Assembly: GCA_016841665.1 (NCBI GenBank)
Contig: JAENYT010000003.1
Coordinates: 1-64,000, forward strand
DNA: 64,000 nt
Source: Methanobacteriota archaeon
GTDB taxonomy: Archaea; Halobacteriota; Methanomicrobia; Methanomicrobiales; Methanomicrobiaceae
Direction: 5' to 3'
The position numbers and the translations under genes are program-made. The notes beneath the pieces are model-generated. The model did not search any database, was not told where the DNA came from, and was given only the letters and a program-made list of their open reading frames with translations. Position 1 is the first letter of the stretch, and each line of letters begins with the position of its first letter. Positions 8,171-29,434 of the stretch are shown here, piece by piece.

Positions 8171-9592
8171 ATGCTTGACGATCAGGAGATCGTGTCCCGG
8201 TTTCTGGATACCAAACTCCAGGTGCACCCCGATGTGGTGCAGTTTCTCCGCGAACAGGGGACACCCTCCATGATCGACGAGATCGTTGCCGGCCTCCCCG
8301 CTAACTGCCTTGTGGTGGCACCCCGGCACATCCCCGGCTGGAAAACCGAGCGGGACGGGGCACGCTTTCTCGCCGACCCCGAGCTCGATGTGCTGGCCGG
8401 TAAAGCAGTATCAGGCATCGAAAAGGTCGATTTCAACGATTTCTACTTCTATTTCCGGGATCGCTACAACCATCTCGCGGCCATGATGCGCTCACGCGTC
8501 AACCCCCTGCCCATCGAGGCCCTCGCCAGGAATACCCGGTACCGTGAGCAGGAGTGCAGCATCGTCGGCATGGTGGTCGAGGCGCGGTCCACGGCGAAAG
8601 GGCACCGCATGGCCGAGCTGGAGGATCCCACCGGCACCATCAACGTGCTCTTCAACAAGGACCGCGATGTGTTCGCGGAGGCGGAAAAAATCGTGCCCGA
8701 CGAGGTCATCGGGGTCAAGGGCAAGCTCTCCAACGACGGCAGCCTCTTTTTCGCCGATACCCTCGTCCGGCCGGACATCCCTCTCCAGCACGCTCCCTAC
8801 ACGAGCGAGACGCCCGGTACCGCAGTGCTCATCTCGGACGTGCACGTAGGCAGTGACACCTTCATGGAAGAGGAGTGGTTGCGGTTCTCCAACTGGCTCG
8901 ACGACGCCCGGCCCCAGTACCTGCTCATCGCCGGAGACCTCGTGGACGGCATCGGCATCTACCCGGGGCAGGACCAGGAACTGACCATCCCGGACATCGA
9001 CGAGCAGTACGATGTATTCGCCTCCATGCTGCGCGATCTTCCCGCATCCTGCCGGATCGTCGTCTCGCCCGGCAACCACGATGCGGTGCGGGGCTCGGAG
9101 CCCCAGCCCGCACTGCCCACACGGTTCACCGAGACCTTTCCCTCCAACGTCACCCTCGTAGAGAACCCGAGCCTGGTGAGCCTGCAGGGCGTCCGCGTGG
9201 CGATGTACCACGGCCGCTCCTACGACGACCTGATTTCCATGATCCCCGGCGCCTCCTACACAAAGCCTGAGGAGATGATGGAGGAGATGCTCAAACGCCG
9301 CCACCTCGCCGCCACCTACGGGATGCGGACGCCCGTCAAACCGGCGAAACAGGACAAACTGGTCATTGATCCCATCCCAGAGATCCTGCACACCGGGCAC
9401 GTGCACATCTGCGGGATGACCCGGTACCGGGGTGTGCTGGGCATCAATGCCGGGGCATGGCAGGCGCAGACGAAGTTCCAGAAGCAGATGAACATCCAGC
9501 CCACCCCGGCACGGGCGGCGGTTGTCGACCTGCAGACGCTCGAGGCGAAATTTTTTGATTTCAACGAACCGGGCGCGCCGCGCACGATCTGA
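8171..9592 (+). CDS. polB: DNA polymerase D small subunit (DP1, proofreading exonuclease)
   Basis: This 473-residue subunit is the 3'-5' exonuclease and accessory subunit of the archaeal replicative polymerase D. An N-terminal helical region is followed by an OB fold (about 125-200; CSIVGMVVEA, AELEDPTGTINVLF). A calcineurin-like phosphoesterase domain then carries the full metal-site series: LISDVHVGSD, AGDLVDGIG, SPGNHDAVRG, YHGRSYDD and the final TGHVHICG. All expected His and Asp ligands appear present, so proofreading activity is likely intact. The large subunit DP2 is not in the window. The gene follows a divergent signal peptidase gene across about 160 bases. Confidence 0.95.
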   Translation: MLDDQEIVSRFLDTKLQVHPDVVQFLREQGTPSMIDEIVAGLPANCLVVAPRHIPGWKTERDGARFLADPELDVLAGKAVSGIEKVDFNDFYFYFRDRYNHLAAMMRSRVNPLPIEALARNTRYREQECSIVGMVVEARSTAKGHRMAELEDPTGTINVLFNKDRDVFAEAEKIVPDEVIGVKGKLSNDGSLFFADTLVRPDIPLQHAPYTSETPGTAVLISDVHVGSDTFMEEEWLRFSNWLDDARPQYLLIAGDLVDGIGIYPGQDQELTIPDIDEQYDVFASMLRDLPASCRIVVSPGNHDAVRGSEPQPALPTRFTETFPSNVTLVENPSLVSLQGVRVAMYHGRSYDDLISMIPGASYTKPEEMMEEMLKRRHLAATYGMRTPVKPAKQDKLVIDPIPEILHTGHVHICGMTRYRGVLGINAGAWQAQTKFQKQMNIQPTPARAAVVDLQTLEAKFFDFNEPGAPRTI

Positions 9593-14418: not shown

Positions 14419-15063
14419 ATGGAAAGGGAGAGGGCGATGCATATGGTCTACAGCCTACAGGGGCTGGTGCTGCTCTTCTCCCTGGCCACCTTCATGATGG
14501 GCGATCTCGGCCACGCGGCATCGGCCGCAATCGTCTTTGCCTTCACCCTCGTCCCCTACGCCCTCGAGCGGCGCCACGAGGTGGCCTTCGAGGCGCCGGT
14601 CTACCTGGCCATATTCGCCGCCGTCTACCTGCACGGGCTCGGAGACCTCATGGGCTTCTACGATTACCTCCACCCGGTATTCGACAAGATCACCCACATC
14701 ACCTCCGCCGGCATTATCACCCTTCTCGGGCTGGTGCTCGTGCTGCTCCTCGACCGCTACAACCGCCAGCAGCTCGAGGGGAAGATCATTGTCGTGGGCA
14801 TCGTCAGCATGACCATCGCCCTGGGGGCGCTCTGGGAGGTGATGGAATTCGCCGCCGACCAGGCCTTTTCCGCCGGCCTGCAGCGGGGGCTGGAAGACAC
14901 CATGCTCGACCTGTGCTTCGATATCGCCGGGGCGATCATCGCCGGCGCCGCAGGGTACCTCTACCTGGTCACTCTGCCCAGAAAACAGCTGGAAGAACGG
15001 TTTTTTCAGGAACAGCAGGGGTCGAACGAACTCGCCCACACCGGTACTGCAGAGGGGCGGTGA
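14419..15063 (+). CDS. DUF2238/YjdF-like integral membrane protein
   Basis: This 214-residue protein has about six membrane segments: residues about 12-30, 35-50, 60-75, 90-112, 125-145 and 168-188. Polar residues inside the membrane region resemble the YjdF/DUF2238 family: HPVFDKITHITSAG, LGALWEVMEFAAD and GLEDTMLDLCFDIAG. The conserved His, Glu and Asp could form a metal or proton site, but no function is established. The C-terminal 30 residues are charged and probably cytoplasmic. AAGGAG at 14403-14408 supports the ATG at 14419; in-frame ATGs at 14437 and 14443 are alternatives. Confidence 0.65.
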   Translation: MERERAMHMVYSLQGLVLLFSLATFMMGDLGHAASAAIVFAFTLVPYALERRHEVAFEAPVYLAIFAAVYLHGLGDLMGFYDYLHPVFDKITHITSAGIITLLGLVLVLLLDRYNRQQLEGKIIVVGIVSMTIALGALWEVMEFAADQAFSAGLQRGLEDTMLDLCFDIAGAIIAGAAGYLYLVTLPRKQLEERFFQEQQGSNELAHTGTAEGR

Positions 15064-20776: not shown

Positions 20777-20941
20777 TGTTATATCAAGTAGGGTGGAGCG
20801 ATACATAGCAATAAAGATTGATATGTGAAGTTAACCAGGAGAACGCATCCGGCGCCCGCGGGGCGATCCTGTCACCGGGTCGTCCCCATAAAAATCAAGC
20901 AAACCCGCTATTTTTTCGAAATTACTGCAGATTTTCATTAT

Positions 20942-20962
20942 TGCAGTAGAAATGAAGGGGTC
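20942..20962 (+). other. ORB-like element D (weak)
   Basis: TGCAGTAGAAATGAAGGGGT keeps the right half of the element (GAAAyrAAGGGGT) but departs in the CCAsTGG core. It points the same way as the strong element 270 bases to its right. Confidence 0.4.
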
Positions 20963-21212: not shown

Positions 21213-21236
21213 TCTCCAGTGGAAATAAAGGGGTTC
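21213..21236 (+). other. ORB-like element E (strong)
   Basis: The core CTCCAGTGGAAATAAAGGGG is followed by TTC. It matches the origin recognition box style of archaeal Orc1/Cdc6 (inverted CCA-TGG core, AAA, then a G run) and the element upstream of cdc6 at 24368-24390 with two substitutions in the 20-base core. Confidence 0.6.
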
Positions 21237-21345: not shown

Positions 21346-22503
21346 TCAGAGGCCGGCCATGAACGCCTCCATACGATCGAGTGCAATCCGCAGGTTGTCG
21401 CGGGACACGGCATAGGCGCACCGCAGGTGGCCTTCGGCGGACTCCCCGAACACCCGCCCCGGGACCACCGCCACCCCCTGTTCGCTCAGCAGACGCTCGG
21501 CAAATGCGAGGTCGGAGAGGCCGGTTTCCGCAACCGAGGGAAACGCGTAGAACGCCCCGTTGGGCATGTGGCAGGATAGGCCGATGCGGTTTAACCCGCG
21601 GACAAACATGTTCCGGCGGATGCAGTACTCCCGCACCATGGCGTCGCGTTCCCTGCTGCCGCGCCGGAGCGCCTCAATTGCCGCCACCTGAGCCATCACG
21701 GGGGCGCACATCATGACATACTGGTGGATTTTCAGCGCCGCGTCGCAGATCTCTTTCGGAGCGCAGAGGAACCCGATCCGCCAACCCGTCATTGCATAGG
21801 CCTTGGAAAACCCGTTGAGGGTAATGGTCCGCTCCCGGAGAGCGTCCACCGTCACCGCTGAGGTGTGGGAGCCTTCGTAGGTGAGTTCCGCGTAGATCTC
21901 GTCGCTGATGAGCAGCAGGTCATGGTCCACGATGACATCGGCAATCGCACGGTAGTCCGCAGTTCGCATCACCCCGCCGGTGGGGTTGTTGGGAAAATTG
22001 ATCACCACGGCTTTGGTCTTCGGGGTGACCGCATCTACCAGGGCATCCGCATTCAGCGCAAAACCGTCCTCCTCACGGCACTGCACCGGCACCGGGGTAC
22101 CGCCGGCGAGCATCACGCAGGGCGAGTAGGCCACAAAGGAGGGTTCGGCAACGATCACCTCGTCCCCTGGATCGACGACCGTCCTGATGGCGACATCGAA
22201 TGCCTCGGAGACCCCGCTGGTCACCACGATCTCCGTTTCCGGGCTGTACCGGATGGAAAACCGGTCGTCGAGATAGCGGGTGATCTCCTGGCAGAGCACG
22301 GGCATCCCGCGGTTGGAGGTATACGAGGTCGAGCCCTGCTCGATGGAATAGATCGCCGCCTCGCAGATGTTCCACGGGGTGGCAAAATCCGGCTCCCCCA
22401 CCCCGAGGGAGATGACGTCTTCCATGTCCTGGACCATGTCGAAAAATTTCCTGATCCCGGAGGGAGGGATTTTTCGGGCCTGCGCTGCTACGAAATCTCT
22501 CAT
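21346..22503 (-). CDS. Pyridoxal phosphate-dependent aminotransferase (aspartate/aromatic class I)
   Basis: This 385-residue fold-type I aminotransferase carries the PLP Schiff-base lysine in NGFSKAYAMTGWRIGF. The conserved NFPNNPTGG supplies the Asn that contacts PLP, ISDEIYAELTYEG contains the Asp-Tyr pair, and the substrate Arg lies in the C-terminal LRCAYAVSRDNLRIAL. The N-terminal GVGEPDFATPWNI is typical of archaeal aspartate/aromatic aminotransferases, but substrate range cannot be read from sequence. It is followed upstream on the same strand by an Lrp-type regulator (9 bases away) and cdc6, suggesting one transcript. Confidence 0.9.
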   Translation of the reverse strand: MRDFVAAQARKIPPSGIRKFFDMVQDMEDVISLGVGEPDFATPWNICEAAIYSIEQGSTSYTSNRGMPVLCQEITRYLDDRFSIRYSPETEIVVTSGVSEAFDVAIRTVVDPGDEVIVAEPSFVAYSPCVMLAGGTPVPVQCREEDGFALNADALVDAVTPKTKAVVINFPNNPTGGVMRTADYRAIADVIVDHDLLLISDEIYAELTYEGSHTSAVTVDALRERTITLNGFSKAYAMTGWRIGFLCAPKEICDAALKIHQYVMMCAPVMAQVAAIEALRRGSRERDAMVREYCIRRNMFVRGLNRIGLSCHMPNGAFYAFPSVAETGLSDLAFAERLLSEQGVAVVPGRVFGESAEGHLRCAYAVSRDNLRIALDRMEAFMAGL

Positions 22504-22512
22504 GCGATCACG

Positions 22513-23004
22513 TCAGAGGGAAATGGGAAGACGCTCGCCTCCTTCCCGCTCAAAAAACGTATGCCCGTTTTCCTTGTAGGTCTTCATGATGAGGATCGTC
22601 GCCGTCTCGCGGATATGGTCCATGGGGGCGATCTGCTCGGCCACAAAGGAGGTGATCTCGTGGATGTTCCTGCCGACGAGCAATAGCTGGAGATCGTACA
22701 CGCCTGAGATCAGCCGGAGACTGCGCACCTGCGAAAAGCGCCCGATCCGTTCGGCGATCTTGTCGTATCCGAAATCTCGCTCGGGATTGACCTTCAGATC
22801 GATGATCGCCGCCACCTCGGGCTCTCCGGCCTTCTCCCAGTCGACCACTGCACGGTACTTGCGAATCACTCCCTGTTCCTCCAGAATGCCGATCCGCGCA
22901 GCGGCCTCCTCCTCGGAGAGGTCTGCCATATCGGCCAGATCGGCGATCGGGGTTCGGCTGTCGTCCTCGAGAATTGTGAGCAGTAAGCGGTCTTTGTCGT
23001 CCAT
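22513..23004 (-). CDS. Lrp/AsnC-family transcriptional regulator
   Basis: This 163-residue protein has an N-terminal winged helix (DRLLLTILEDDSRTPIADLADMADLSEEEAAARI) and a C-terminal RAM/ACT-like ligand domain (about 62-145; VAAIIDLKVNPERD, LISGVYDLQLLLVGRN). Such proteins usually sense amino acids. Its position directly before the aminotransferase makes control of that gene, or response to its product, a reasonable guess. The ATG at 23004 follows GGTGA; longer starts at 23010 and 23013 overlap the cdc6 stop codon. In either case translation is coupled to cdc6. Confidence 0.88.
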   Translation of the reverse strand: MDDKDRLLLTILEDDSRTPIADLADMADLSEEEAAARIGILEEQGVIRKYRAVVDWEKAGEPEVAAIIDLKVNPERDFGYDKIAERIGRFSQVRSLRLISGVYDLQLLLVGRNIHEITSFVAEQIAPMDHIRETATILIMKTYKENGHTFFEREGGERLPISL

Positions 23005-23009
23005 CGTCA

Positions 23010-24293
23010 TCACCGGAAGAGCGTTTTGAATCGAGCCATATCAATGTCATTCAGTCGTTCGTCGTTCAGCCGTGTGTCCTTGAGGAGGGTGTCCCAGATC
23101 TTCTTAGTGCCGGTGCCAAATGACATCTCCTTGGTCCTGCCGTAACGGCCCCTGCTCACTACGCGCGCGTTGATCACGCCCAGCATGTTCAGCTCGGAGA
23201 TGAGATCGGTGATGCGGCGGTGGGTGAGCACATCGAGGTCCAGGATCCGGGCAACCTCCCGGTAGACCTGGGCGACCTCCCCTGTGGTAAAGACATCCTT
23301 GTTGAGCTTGGTAAAAAAGAGCATCGAATAGAGGACCGCCTTGCTCTGCGTGGGTAGCGTGGAGACACACTCGATGAGGCTGTCGGTCTCGATCCGCTGT
23401 ATGGCCGCCCGGACATTGGTTTCGGCAACCCGGTCTGTGTTCTCCCGCTCCGCGAGCTCCCCCGAGACGCGGAGCAGATCGAGTGCCCTGCGGGCGTCCC
23501 CGTGCTCCTGGGCGGCGAGGGCGGCGCAGAGAGGAATGACCCCATCCTCCAGCGCTGCCTCGACAAACGCCACGTTCGCCCTCTGCTGAAGAATGTCCAC
23601 GAGCTGCATCGCGTTGTACGGCGGAAAGACGATCTCCTCCTCGGAGAGCGAGGAGAGCACACGCGGGTCGAGGAAATCGGTGAACCGGAGATCGTTGGAG
23701 ATGCCGATGATGCTCACCTTCGAGTCCTTGAGGTCCGAGTTGATGCGGGTGAGGTTGTAGAGGGTCTCATCACCGCTCTTTTTGACCAGCTTGTCGATCT
23801 CGTCGAGGACGATGACGTGCACCCCGCCCATCGCCTCCATCTGGTTTTTCAGTTCGGTGTACACCTGGTCGGTGGGCCACCCGGTCATGGGGATGCTGGT
23901 CCGGGGGCGATCGCTCGCCCGGGCATCCGAGTCGTCCAGGTAGTTGGCGATCTGGGCGAGCACCCGGTACTGGGTGTCGATCACTTCGCAGTTGAGGTGG
24001 ATCACGTGGCAGGCGGTACCCATTTCGTTGCTGGCATTCTCCAGTTCTCGTCCCACGTACCGCACACAGGCGGTCTTTCCGGTTCCCGTTTTCCCATAGA
24101 TAAGAATATTGGAGGGAGTCTCGTCCCGGAGAGACGGTGCGAGAATCGACGCGATGGAATCGATCTGCGGCTTCCTGTGGGGAAGCACGTGCGGGCGGTA
24201 GGAATGGCGGAGCACTTCCCGGTTTTTGAATATGCTCGTATTATGGAGAAATTTTTTAAATAATCCCATTGAGGGGCTCTCTTCTTCGGACAT
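23010..24293 (-). CDS. cdc6: Orc1/Cdc6 replication initiator
   Basis: This 427-residue AAA+ protein binds origin recognition boxes and loads the MCM helicase. Walker A is GKTGTGKTACV, Walker B IVLDEIDKL, sensor 1 around IIGISNDLRFTDFLDPRV and sensor 2 near HGDARRALDLLRVSGE. A C-terminal winged helix (about 320-410) includes VLTHRRITDLISELNMLG and the wing RGRYGRTKE. The ATG at 24293 is preferred to the one at 24335, since the extra 14 residues are not conserved-looking. Immediately upstream lie ORB-like repeats in both orientations. That is the usual layout of an archaeal origin next to its own cdc6 gene. Other cdc6 paralogues may exist elsewhere. Confidence 0.95.
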   Translation of the reverse strand: MSEEESPSMGLFKKFLHNTSIFKNREVLRHSYRPHVLPHRKPQIDSIASILAPSLRDETPSNILIYGKTGTGKTACVRYVGRELENASNEMGTACHVIHLNCEVIDTQYRVLAQIANYLDDSDARASDRPRTSIPMTGWPTDQVYTELKNQMEAMGGVHVIVLDEIDKLVKKSGDETLYNLTRINSDLKDSKVSIIGISNDLRFTDFLDPRVLSSLSEEEIVFPPYNAMQLVDILQQRANVAFVEAALEDGVIPLCAALAAQEHGDARRALDLLRVSGELAERENTDRVAETNVRAAIQRIETDSLIECVSTLPTQSKAVLYSMLFFTKLNKDVFTTGEVAQVYREVARILDLDVLTHRRITDLISELNMLGVINARVVSRGRYGRTKEMSFGTGTKKIWDTLLKDTRLNDERLNDIDMARFKTLFR

Positions 24294-24367
24294 GTATACA
24301 CCAGAGCGCACTTGAGAAGCATCCTTACGATGCACGATCTAGTATATGTGATCATTTCGATCCTATT

Positions 24368-24390
24368 AACCCCTTTGTTTCCAGTGGAGA
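24368..24390 (-). other. ORB-like element A (strong)
   Basis: Read on the minus strand, TCCACTGGAAACAAAGGGGT followed by T is an almost textbook archaeal origin recognition box: a CCACTGG dyad, AAAC, then the G run. It lies 75 bases from the cdc6 start and points toward cdc6. Confidence 0.72.
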
Positions 24391-24486
24391 GGGTGTTGGT
24401 AGAAAAGAAGACGCCTGGAAGACGGATAAAGGATTTGGGGCGCTATTTTGGGGTGGATTGATGGTGCAGGGAGGGAGGGGAAGCCC

Positions 24487-24513
24487 CACCCCATGGTTTC
24501 GAGTGGAGAAGGA
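24487..24513 (-). other. ORB-like element B
   Basis: Minus strand CTCCACTCGAAACCATGGGG followed by TGG keeps the TCCACT, GAAAC and GGGG blocks with one change in the dyad core. It has the same orientation as element A and lies about 120 bases from it. Confidence 0.55.
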
Positions 24514-24693
24514 ATATGAGAAGACCTTCTTCTCATATATAATAAAACAGAAGAAGACTCATTGATGGATCTCTTTCTCATGGTACTTAAGGGATCCGGA
24601 TCGCGATCCGATCACACAGGGCAGCTCACAGTGTGGGTGAACGTCTGGCGATCCGTTCATCGGCTCGGTGGGTGCAGGCACCTTCTCCACTGG

Positions 24694-24717
24694 CTCCACT
24701 GGCAACAGGAGGGTCCC
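24694..24717 (+). other. ORB-like element C (inverted relative to A and B)
   Basis: Plus strand CTCCACTGGCAACAGGAGGG followed by TCCC. The CTCCACTGG core is exact and also occurs 12 bases earlier as a partial tandem copy (TTCTCCACTGG). The right half is degenerate. Its orientation is opposite to A and B, with the AT-rich block between them. Confidence 0.5.
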
Positions 24718-24785
24718 CCTCTCGTTATGAACCTATCCGCGGATCGACCACTACCCTCATCAGATCTCCCCGCCAATGGGGATTC

Positions 24786-25278: not shown

Positions 25279-25800
25279 TCAGCGGTAGACGTCGAGGAGG
25301 GCGACCCGCTCACGGACGAGTTCGGCAAGGCGCCCCTCTCCGACGGTCGCCAGCTCCTCCGGGGTAATCCCAAAAAGTTTCATCAAATGCACTTTTTTTG
25401 CAGCATCAATGCCTTCCCAGTCTTCCTCGACGAAATGGACCAGATCCCCGAGGATGTCGCGTGCTTCCGGTGAGGGGGGGCAGAAGCAGACATACCCGGC
25501 ATTTTCGCCCCGGTGAATGCCGAACCGCACGGCGTCCAGCACCTGCCTGCTCCCCGCGGCATAGAGCAGTGCCTCCATCTCGAATGAATTTGCTATGGGG
25601 CTCTCCTCGAAAAAGGAGCGTTGCGCATGGTCGAGTGCGGTGATGACGTGGGCGGTCCCGGCCATGTTCGCGGCATTGAACACCACGATATGCACCCCGA
25701 ATCTGTCGGCGATCTCCCGTGTTCGTACAAGGAAATCGGCTTCGTCATCCACAGCAAACCGCGCCTGTGCGATCTCGCAGTCCACTTTCATCTCGGTCAC
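25279..25800 (-). CDS. cgi121: KEOPS complex subunit Cgi121
   Basis: This 173-residue protein is the tRNA-recruiting subunit of KEOPS, which forms N6-threonylcarbamoyladenosine on ANN-reading tRNAs. The key segment SFEMEALLYAAGSRQVLDAVRFG matches the family's conserved helix, and the mixed alpha/beta N-terminal half is consistent. The Kae1, Bud32 and Pcc1 subunits are not in the window. It directly follows hel308 on the same strand (the hel308 stop and this start adjoin the same base run around 25800), a gene pairing I recall from other Euryarchaeota. Confidence 0.85.
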   Translation of the reverse strand: MTEMKVDCEIAQARFAVDDEADFLVRTREIADRFGVHIVVFNAANMAGTAHVITALDHAQRSFFEESPIANSFEMEALLYAAGSRQVLDAVRFGIHRGENAGYVCFCPPSPEARDILGDLVHFVEEDWEGIDAAKKVHLMKLFGITPEELATVGEGRLAELVRERVALLDVYR

Positions 25801-27945
25801 CTAAAAAAAGGACAGGGTTTTCTGTCCTGTGGTTTCGTATCCGTCGTCCTCGCCCCCGCCATCCGGCCGGTCCAGCTGCGCGAAGATGGATTCGGCGATC
25901 TTCTGGCCCAGGATGATACTGACGCGCTCAATGCCGGCAGTACGGAGCGCCTCCGGGGAGGTGATGTTGTTATTGAAGAGCCGGCGGGCGCGCACCCGCC
26001 CGATCCCCCGCAGGCTGATGAGGGGCAGGAGCTCGCGCTTGATCCCGTGCTTCACCCGCAGCTCGGTCTCCCTGATCGGGCCGGCACAGTCCGGCGTCTC
26101 CATGCGTGCGATCCTCGCCGAGGCGTGGATCAGCCACCCGATGCCCTCGACCGCATTATAGATGTCTCCCGGGCCCACATTGTACCGCTCGCAGATCACG
26201 GCTTCGCCGACCTCATCCATCCAGTCGGCGATGAGCATCGCCGTCTTCAGGCTGCGGAAGAAGCCCTCGCCGTCGTCCCACGAGAATTCCATCCAGAGGT
26301 CGTCCTCGTGGGCATAGACGAACTGTTCAAGGACAGGGAGGTCCTGCTTGCGCACGTAGAGGGTGTACATGTCGGGTGTGCTGCACAGCAGCTGGAGCAG
26401 CCCGATCTCGGACCAGTGCTCATGGGACCGGAGGGCAGCGCTGATCATCTCCGCGCCGCGGGGGTTGATGTAGAGGCGGGAGACCAGGGTCCCGTAGGAG
26501 GTGGCATGCAGGAGCCCGCCCACATCGGTGATCATCTCCGCACTGTTGAGGAACTCGAGTACGCTGTCGACAATTCTTGAGAGGTACCGGCTGTTTTTCT
26601 TCTGGTACACGTAGAACGTCTTTTCCAAAAACCCGATCAGGTCCTCGCTCGAGGAGACGAACCCGGTGGCGACCAGGGAGAGGATGTGGGTGGTGAGCGC
26701 CGATTCCGAAGCGCACTTCGAGTGGATGTCCTCTGCCGGCGCCTCGATATAGGCGGCGAACAGGTCCTCGACCGCCCCGCGTTCTTTGGCAATGAGGATT
26801 GCCTCGCCGTACGGGTCGAGGTGCGGCCTTCCCGCCCTTCCCGCCATCTGCCGGTACTCCCGCACCGGAATGGGCCGCATGCCCTCCCCGGCCTGGAAGC
26901 GGAGGTAGTCGCGCACCACCACCCGGCGGGCGGGGAGGTTGAGCCCCGCGGCGAGGGTGGGGGTGGAGGAGATCACCTTGATCAGGTTCTCCCGGAACCC
27001 CCGCTCCACGATATGGCGCTGCTTTTTCGAGAGCCCGGCATGGTGGAACGCCGCCCCGTTCGCCGCACAGGCGGCGAGCACCTTGCCCATATCCGTCTCG
27101 GCAGCCGCCTCGAGCTCGCGGCCGAGTTCGGCGAGCCGGGGGTCGTCGAGTTTGCACGCCGACGCAGCCCGTTTGGCAAATCCCTCCGCGTTCTTGCGCG
27201 AGCCGACGAAGACCAGGCACTGCCCTCCTTCGGCGATGGTGTCCAGGAAGAGGTTGATGTCCTCCTGTTTGGAGGGGGTGGCGATCTCCTTCTCGCCGTC
27301 GGCAAAGTGCACGGTGCCCCGGTAGCAGACCCCCTCCCGCAGGTCCACCGGCCGCCATTCAGAGGTGATCAGTGCGGCATCCAGCCAGCCGGCGAGCGCT
27401 TCGGGGTTGCCGATAGTGGCCGAGAGGGCGATGATCTGCATGCCGGGGTTGAGGGTGCGCAGCTTGGTGATCACCATCTCAAGGGTCGCCCCGCGGTCCT
27501 CGGAATCGATCAGGTGCACCTCGTCGACCACGAGCAGGGAGATCTCCCGAAGCCAGTGCGTGGCGTTGCGAAGCAGGGAATCCACCTTCTCGCTGGTGGC
27601 GATGATGATGGCGTTTTGTCCCAGGTACTCGTCACGCCGGTCGTAGTCCCCGGTGGCGATCCCCACCGATGCCTGCTTTCCGCTGAACTCATCGTATTTT
27701 TCGGACGCGAGCGCTTTCAGGGGCACGATGTAGAGGCACCTGCCCTTCTCTTCGATATGGTGGTGCATGGCCATCTCGGCGACGAGGGTCTTTCCGCTTG
27801 CCGTGGGGATGGCGATGAGGAGGTTTGCATCTGAAAAGAGGCCCGCCTCGATGCACTCCTCCTGCGGGGGGTAGAGATCGGTGATCCCCCGTTCCCGGTA
27901 ATACTGCACCAGGTGGTCCGGTACCGGCAATGATTCGATTTTCAT
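25801..27945 (-). CDS. hel308: ATP-dependent DNA helicase Hel308
   Basis: This 714-residue superfamily 2 3'-5' helicase unwinds lagging-strand forks and recombination intermediates. Motifs in order are: Q motif LYPPQEECIEAG, Walker A IPTASGKT, Ib-type MYIVPLKALASEKY region, DEVH in LLVVDEVHLID, motif III LSATIGN, FHHAGLSKKQRH, and motif VI YRQMAGRAGRP. A winged helix and a seven-helix ratchet follow. The C-terminal domain contains a helix-hairpin-helix (ISLRGIGRVRARRLFNNNI). The ending QKTLSFF resembles a PCNA-binding tail. A longer frame exists, but the ATG at 27945 begins with the family start and is preceded by a G run. The cgi121 gene follows it on the same strand. Confidence 0.94.
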   Translation of the reverse strand: MKIESLPVPDHLVQYYRERGITDLYPPQEECIEAGLFSDANLLIAIPTASGKTLVAEMAMHHHIEEKGRCLYIVPLKALASEKYDEFSGKQASVGIATGDYDRRDEYLGQNAIIIATSEKVDSLLRNATHWLREISLLVVDEVHLIDSEDRGATLEMVITKLRTLNPGMQIIALSATIGNPEALAGWLDAALITSEWRPVDLREGVCYRGTVHFADGEKEIATPSKQEDINLFLDTIAEGGQCLVFVGSRKNAEGFAKRAASACKLDDPRLAELGRELEAAAETDMGKVLAACAANGAAFHHAGLSKKQRHIVERGFRENLIKVISSTPTLAAGLNLPARRVVVRDYLRFQAGEGMRPIPVREYRQMAGRAGRPHLDPYGEAILIAKERGAVEDLFAAYIEAPAEDIHSKCASESALTTHILSLVATGFVSSSEDLIGFLEKTFYVYQKKNSRYLSRIVDSVLEFLNSAEMITDVGGLLHATSYGTLVSRLYINPRGAEMISAALRSHEHWSEIGLLQLLCSTPDMYTLYVRKQDLPVLEQFVYAHEDDLWMEFSWDDGEGFFRSLKTAMLIADWMDEVGEAVICERYNVGPGDIYNAVEGIGWLIHASARIARMETPDCAGPIRETELRVKHGIKRELLPLISLRGIGRVRARRLFNNNITSPEALRTAGIERVSIILGQKIAESIFAQLDRPDGGGEDDGYETTGQKTLSFF

Positions 27946-28092
27946 CCAAACCCCTTCAATTCCACTGCACAAACGAGCCTTTTCGCGCGCAATCGTAAAC
28001 AGCGCCCGCTGATCCGTTTCGATCTCCAGTTGCAACCCCCCTTTGCGGCAAAACGGCGGTATCCGGGAGGATGCAGGCCCCCGCACCGGCAG

Positions 28093-28657: not shown

Positions 28658-29434
28658 TCATGGTTCGAACCGCCCCGGCCCCACGATCTCCTGAAAAATC
28701 TCCTTTTCTTCCCGCACCGCGCAATGTTTTGCAAAAAACCGGTTGATGTTTTTTATGTCCCTGACCAGGAAGGCCAGCGCCCGCGGGTGGTCGGGGGTGA
28801 CCGCCTGGCCCATATCGATGATATAGGGCTGCTCGTGGTAGAGGATGTTGAACTCCGAGAGGTCGGCGTGGATGAGCCCGGCTTTGTTGAAGAGCGTATC
28901 GATGTAGCCGAGGATCCGGGCGTAGCACTCCTGGGGGTCGTCGAGCTCTGCGTTGCGCAGCTGCGGATAGGGCCGCTCCTCTTCGCCGAGAAACTCCATG
29001 AGCAGGATGTTGCGGTCGAAGGCGATCGGTGCGGGAACAGGGATGCCGGCCTCACGCGCCCGCGAGATGTTGGCGTACTCCTTTTTGGTCCAGGCAAAGA
29101 CGAGCTCTTTTCTGGATTTCCTGATGGAGGCGAAGCGGGGGTCGCCCACGATGTACTCGCTCATCCCCTTGAAGTTCGCCGACCTGATACGGTAGATCTT
29201 GATGGCGATGGCCGCCCCGTCCTTCTCCCCGTAGAAGACATTGGCTTCCTTGCCGGTGGAGATGGACCCTCCGATGACCGAGATGTACTTTTTATGGACC
29301 AGGCGGTAGAGGGCGAGGAGGGTGACCTCGTCGAAGACGTTGTCCATCACCTTCATCTGGTCGGCGTCCCTGATGCGGACGCCCATCTTCGCCACTTCCC
29401 GGTCGAATTTGTCCTGCAGTGAATCCAGATTCAC
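28658..29434 (-). CDS. rio1: RIO1-type atypical serine protein kinase
   Basis: This 258-residue RIO-family kinase/ATPase functions in maturation of the small ribosomal subunit. The RIO1-specific ATP loop is GGSISTGKEANVFYG, the ATP lysine is in AIKIYR, the hinge is ILLMEFLGE, the catalytic loop IHADLSEFNILYH and the metal-binding IDMGQAV. The archaeal length is typical, without a eukaryotic tail. It lies between tyrS (9 bases upstream) and the KH-domain gene (20 bases downstream) on the same strand. Confidence 0.95.
   Translation of the reverse strand: MNLDSLQDKFDREVAKMGVRIRDADQMKVMDNVFDEVTLLALYRLVHKKYISVIGGSISTGKEANVFYGEKDGAAIAIKIYRIRSANFKGMSEYIVGDPRFASIRKSRKELVFAWTKKEYANISRAREAGIPVPAPIAFDRNILLMEFLGEEERPYPQLRNAELDDPQECYARILGYIDTLFNKAGLIHADLSEFNILYHEQPYIIDMGQAVTPDHPRALAFLVRDIKNINRFFAKHCAVREEKEIFQEIVGPGRFEP

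Follow-up and report, generated by a model that had tools for sequence, protein, structure and literature searches.

A probable oriC1-type replication origin with satellite origin recognition boxes in an uncultured Methanomicrobiales archaeon

The intergenic region between the initiator gene cdc6 and a moaB-like gene is very probably the main chromosomal replication origin, of the oriC1 type, of an uncultured archaeon of the order Methanomicrobiales. The 64,000 nt of DNA that were analysed as a whole (in the following called the window) lie on contig C53 of a host genome of 2,221,645 bases (2.22 Mb) in 68 contigs, which is 85% complete. A first-pass annotation had proposed a candidate origin at this site, and this reading is now supported by a match to the group consensus, an Orc1-type neighbour, an order-wide layout and a turn of the nucleotide disparity curves. 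The boxes, their orientation and conservation, the gene neighbours and the disparity turn are direct observations. The origin is of an ordinary, already known kind; it is this uncultured species that is new. The features are as follows, with origin recognition boxes abbreviated as ORB and scores in bits from the weight matrix described below.

20941..20961, plus: second downstream satellite ORB, reading towards the core, score 27.3
21214..21234, plus: downstream satellite ORB, reading towards the core, score 37.7
21346..22503, minus: class I aminotransferase gene (aat), third in the conserved cdc6-lrp-aat run
22513..23013, minus: gene for an Lrp/AsnC-type regulator (lrp), second in the cdc6 operon
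23010..24293, minus: orc1/cdc6-1 initiator gene, AAA+ plus winged helix, ATG at 24293
24294..24785, strand not applicable: proposed core origin, the entire cdc6-moaB intergenic region
24369..24389, minus: ORB-1, full consensus box CTCCACTGGAAACAAAGGGGT, identical in both sister species, score 35.4
24488..24508, minus as ORB-1: ORB-2 CTCCACTCGAAACCATGGGGT, one mismatch to the search pattern, score 24.6
24507..24566: AT-rich block, probable unwinding element, 70% A+T
24694..24714 (24685..24714 with a half copy), plus, inverted relative to ORB-1 and ORB-2: ORB-3 CTCCACTGGCAACAGGAGGGT, score 15.7
25279..25800: small gene for the KEOPS subunit Cgi121
25801..27945, minus: hel308-type ATP-dependent DNA helicase gene (NCBIfam NF002654, 1030 bits, cut-off 887)
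27950..27970, minus: weak ORB-like element, its last base 4 bp before the hel308 start codon (27945), score 17.8

The core is bounded by the ATG of cdc6 (24293, minus strand) and that of the moaB-like gene (24786, plus strand). A minus-strand repeat previously placed at 24368-24390 was found as ORB-1 at 24369-24389. Its close copy, given as 24487-24513, corresponds to ORB-2 (24488-24508, minus strand), whose 25-nt repeat unit is 84% identical to that of ORB-1 at a spacing of 119 nt. The inverted copy reported at 24694-24717 is ORB-3 (24694-24714, plus strand), 81% complementary to ORB-1 and immediately preceded by a tandem half copy, CTCCACTGG, at 24685. Earlier and present coordinates differ by 1–3 bases. 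ORB-3 is degenerate in the window's species and strong in two sister species (score 29). Three further ORBs, at 20941-20961(+), 21214-21234(+) and 27950-27970(-), were absent from the first-pass annotation.

The AT-rich block that had been noticed between the copies extends from 24507 to 24566; its A+T content of 70%, compared with a window mean of 40%, places it among the top 0.6% of 60-mers, and the remaining gap to ORB-3 is G+C-rich. As in oriC1-type origins, inverted boxes thus surround an AT-rich, presumably unwinding region, with one arm degenerate in the window's species. Inside the block, near 24516-24536, lies an inverted repeat, ATGAGAAG..CTTCTCAT, which is exact in three congeneric genomes. 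A palindrome beside the block, ATCGCGAT (24600-24607), is exactly kept in three congeneric genomes as well and was found again between the core ORBs of two relatives (G019 and G024).

The initiator encoded next to the core has AAA+, lid and winged-helix domains (Pfam Cdc6_C, 2.6e-28, and Cdc6_lid) and passes the NCBIfam equivalog NF001625 for ORC1-type DNA replication proteins with 592 bits at a cut-off of 501. Its nearest solved chains are Sulfolobus solfataricus Cdc6-1 (Orc1-1; 2qby_A, 3e-104) and Aeropyrum pernix ORC1 (2v1u_A, 2e-97), and its wing sequence RGRYGRTKE aligns with RGRYGKTKE of 2qby_A. The adjoining orc1/cdc6 gene therefore belongs to the ORB-binding Orc1-1 type, as expected for an oriC1-type origin. 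ORB-1 lies ~76 bp before the cdc6 ATG; between the two, ~20 bp from the end of ORB-1, is a conserved TATA-like stretch of the cdc6 promoter, agtatatgtgatcat. Because ORB-1 is thus located just upstream of the cdc6 promoter, its position suggests autoregulation, in which the initiator probably regulates its own gene via ORB-1.

The repeats fit the consensus of the group. The Methanomicrobia ORB motif published with Ori-Finder 2 is TCCA[GC]T[GT]GAAA[CT][AG]A[AT]GGGGT (PMC4164010), and the best copy in the window fits it exactly. The earlier impression of a known ORB shape next to orc1/cdc6 was therefore borne out, with an exact consensus copy beside an Orc1-type initiator and a box that fits the same regular expression as the Methanomicrobia entries of Ori-Finder 2 and DoriC.

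Searching the whole host genome with a pattern derived from the best copy yielded four matches with at most two mismatches, all inside 3.5 kb. These four best matches are 24369, 24488, 24694 and 21214 on C53, with 0, 1, 2 and 2 mismatches, respectively. We also built a weight matrix from 116 sites around cdc6 in other genera, leaving out the window's own genus. In the 64-kb window, where 0.03 sites scoring 14 bits or more are expected on both strands, it detected six, all between 20.9 and 28.0 kb; 480 kb of unselected sequence from two relatives (L134-L173) contained none scoring 13 or more. No second ORB cluster was found in the host genome; the few ORBs elsewhere in it are isolated. That such repeats arose by chance in a G+C-rich intergenic region has a negligible probability. 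The 12-base core TCCACTGGAAAC alone, allowing two mismatches, does occur in the window at a frequency not above chance (7 found, 4.5 expected), and the full box is needed for this reason; the latter, however, is far above expectation and conserved over the order. The clustering in the host genome, the matrix scores and the conservation in relatives together refute a chance origin of the boxes.

Conservation was assessed by raw genome counts, in which shared ancestry is ignored: the box is present with at most two mismatches in 28 of 30 relatives, with a reversed-pattern control that was almost empty, and a refined box with up to three mismatches occurs in all 61 genomes of a class-level sample. 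ORBs are not scattered over these genomes: among the matches listed (at most two mismatches), 178 of 203 lie within 9 kb of cdc6-1, and the reversed pattern stays near zero. In 31 of 32 Methanomicrobiales genomes, cdc6 is preceded by two ORBs in inverted orientation with AT-rich DNA between them; two of these genomes have the boxes separated by more than 1 kb. The gene order hel308 - cgi121 - moaB - [core] - cdc6 - lrp - aat is largely common to the relatives, and several closed relative records are numbered from cdc6.

The disparity curves turn at the same site. Two conditions that the first-pass annotation had named as refuting an origin, random motif positions and a missing skew shift, were therefore not observed. 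On the 147-kb contig that carries the window, the cumulative curves for MK (G+T minus A+C) and AT reach their extremes ~2 kb from the core, with a minimum at 22,234 and a maximum at 22,412, respectively. For GC the lowest point is at 28,740, 4 kb from the core; GGGT shows a shallow minimum at 14,719. The turn is therefore clear for MK and AT and weaker for GC, with the host genome represented by this one contig. For closed relatives, skew was calculated from samples covering ~10–12% of each chromosome. In G003, represented by 20 evenly spaced 12-kb samples, GC, MK and GGGT skew all divide most strongly into two arms at cdc6; in G020 this is true of AT and MK, with a weak GC skew.

At archaeal origins, ORBs on both sides of an AT-rich element are bound by Orc1/Cdc6, which recruits MCM (reviewed in PMC4010727); every cis part and the trans factor of such an origin are present at this locus. 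Orc1/Cdc6 from the adjoining gene would bind the inverted ORBs flanking the AT-rich block, distort this block and recruit the MCM helicase, and two forks would then depart in opposite directions. We infer binding, melting and firing, as well as all regulatory roles, from the sequence. The boxes could instead be only Orc1/Cdc6 transcription-control sites, serving cdc6 autoregulation and the control of neighbours, with replication starting elsewhere. ORB-1 abutting the cdc6 promoter, the box at the hel308 start codon and the few isolated ORBs elsewhere in the genome would fit such a role. We regard it as very improbable, however, since the disparity curves turn at the locus, the inverted pair with its AT-rich middle is kept order-wide and a search of the host genome gave no further ORB cluster.

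Looking beyond the core, two satellite ORBs follow the cdc6-lrp-aat run. The box at 21214 is invariant in three congeneric genomes amid otherwise diverged intergenic DNA. An aat-side box occurs in 24 of the 35 genomes in which the 3′ side of aat is covered, the box nearest aat being on the same strand in all 24; it is missing in the other 11, which belong to family f5 and part of f6. Regulation of purA was considered as a reason for these boxes and rejected: the box faces away from purA and stays at the aat end where purA lies ~2 kb further off (G008, G013) or was not found nearby (G020, G025, G018, G010, G016), and independence from the position of purA argues that it is not a purA promoter element.

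On the other side of the core, the ORB-like element before hel308 was detected in 34 of 38 Methanomicrobiales, scoring 8.9 to 37.2, with its end 4–23 bp from the start codon; the 17 relatives outside the order all lack it. As the distances to the start codon are not all equal modulo three, the box is not coding. It is kept where hel308 sits 11 kb (G019, G024) or 42 kb (G007) from cdc6, which argues that it is tied to hel308 rather than to the origin. We discarded the idea of satellites placed symmetrically at ~3.4 kb to the left and right of the core, because the upstream box tracks hel308 and not distance (-5988 in G061, ~11 kb in G019 and G024, 42 kb in G007). For Methanomicrobiales, a search found no publication on either kind of box, at hel308 or behind aat; most subscription journals were outside its range.

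DnaA in Escherichia coli is titrated by datA, DnaA-regulated promoters exist, and DnaA controls genes and its own supply in bacteria. These cases resemble our proposal in the principle of initiator boxes outside the origin, as an analogy and not by homology. Through the box at its start codon, the gene for the fork-repair helicase Hel308 is most likely regulated by the initiator, direct control being the simplest reading. Behind the operon, the satellite boxes are most likely targets of the same initiator and may moderate initiation by titration or by looping to the core. All these roles are much less certain than the origin itself and are suggested only tentatively. Titration, by analogy with Haloarcula hispanica, is plausible and not more than that, because only two boxes are present here compared with eleven in oriC2D. 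We likewise consider it possible, though doubtful, that Orc1/Cdc6 both regulates hel308 via the start-codon ORB and meters itself via the satellite ORBs, which would join initiation, initiator supply and fork repair in one network.

Two competing explanations, each of them somewhat unlikely in our judgement, concern these outer boxes. The element before hel308 might be a translation or mRNA leader signal that resembles an ORB by coincidence; in most genomes only 4–7 bp separate the end of its G-run from the start codon, near the position of a ribosome-binding site, and its first half (TCC) is often degenerate. However, full ORBs with scores of 31–37 precede hel308 in several genomes at distances of 4–23 bp, and in 777 kb of Methanomicrobiales sequence no other gene start has the element, the hel308 box being the sole start-adjacent site. 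The satellite ORBs might also be left over from a broader origin zone, as relics or spare components lacking a present function, given their absence from the 11 genomes of f5 and part of f6 and the ORBs known within the gene adjoining cdc6 in Thermococcales (PMC2643942). Against this, the boxes are intact where flanking intergenic DNA diverges, the aat-side box never changes strand in the genomes possessing it, and the hel308 box still stands before the start codon where hel308 lies 11–42 kb away.

The host genome contains a much diverged cdc6 paralogue on contig C64. No ORB was found within 5 kb of it and none in C64:80000-99000; one, at C64:103765 (L126:4765-4785), is 10 kb off, so that a second origin at this paralogue is unsupported in the host genome. 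Being 85% complete in 68 contigs, the genome may have a second origin. Across the genomes searched, 8 of the 25 ORBs away from cdc6-1 among the matches listed have a diverged cdc6 paralogue no more than 15 kb away, and for a ninth the distance is 15.1 kb; this is far above positional expectation, and the ORBs are never directly upstream of the paralogue (L126:4765-4785, L129:11024, L130:10010 and 10060; also in G032, G035, G038, G054 and G062).

An ORB pair 70 bp apart is located far from the origin on contig C68 of the host genome, G000 (364216 and 364286; L127:9217-9237 and 9287-9307), between an acyl-CoA-synthetase-like gene and a receiver-like/ppk region. It occurs at the same gene in both sister species (L179:3670/3740, L180:3058/3128) and is a possible site of initiator titration or control. 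Outside the order, in the same phylum, hel308-cgi121 is closely followed by an ORB with 0 mismatches (L237:3638-3657, L238:2041-2060, L239:3676-3695), which overlaps the end of the downstream gene or lies within ~40 bp of it, ~33–66 kb from cdc6; this box may once have been linked to an origin and have moved along with hel308-cgi121. Family f8 of the phylum sample has two ORB clusters 6–13 kb apart in outward orientation (G116:C2:76805-88371, G084:C1:1217759-1227988, G090:C1:1643994-1657084, G094:C1:585510-591723), which are not beside the Orc1-like cdc6 gene that was found and look like a different origin layout.

Fixing the origin for an uncultured methanogen lineage makes growth-rate estimates from metagenome coverage possible. 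The conserved satellite boxes offer order-wide, easily tested sites at which to examine possible control by an archaeal initiator over genes and over its own supply, and culturable relatives in the order have the same sites.

Compared with known systems, the locus resembles Pyrococcus oriC, Sulfolobus oriC1 and haloarchaeal oriC1 (PMC4010727) in its inverted ORBs flanking AT-rich DNA directly upstream of orc1/cdc6, in the common TCCA-GAAAC...GGGGT type of ORB and in its Orc1-1-like initiator. It differs from them in having lrp-aat and moaB-cgi121-hel308 as neighbours instead of PolD genes, and in its satellite ORBs behind the operon and at hel308. With the predicted Methanomicrobia oriCs of Ori-Finder 2 and DoriC it shares the box expression and the intergenic site beside cdc6; the satellite boxes in Methanomicrobiales are not described in the accessible part of that source, which does note an ORB group at purO/cgi in Haloferax volcanii (PMC4164010). 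In Haloarcula hispanica, the ORB-rich region oriC2D downstream of cdc6E lowers initiation, probably by titration (PMC3936714); among experimentally examined systems it is the nearest parallel to the downstream boxes. The window is like it in having a separate set of intergenic ORBs (20941, 21214) downstream of the initiator gene and its operon; unlike the dense cluster of 11 boxes directly after cdc6E, however, there are two boxes here, they follow lrp and aat, the operon's third gene, and they belong to an oriC1-type system.
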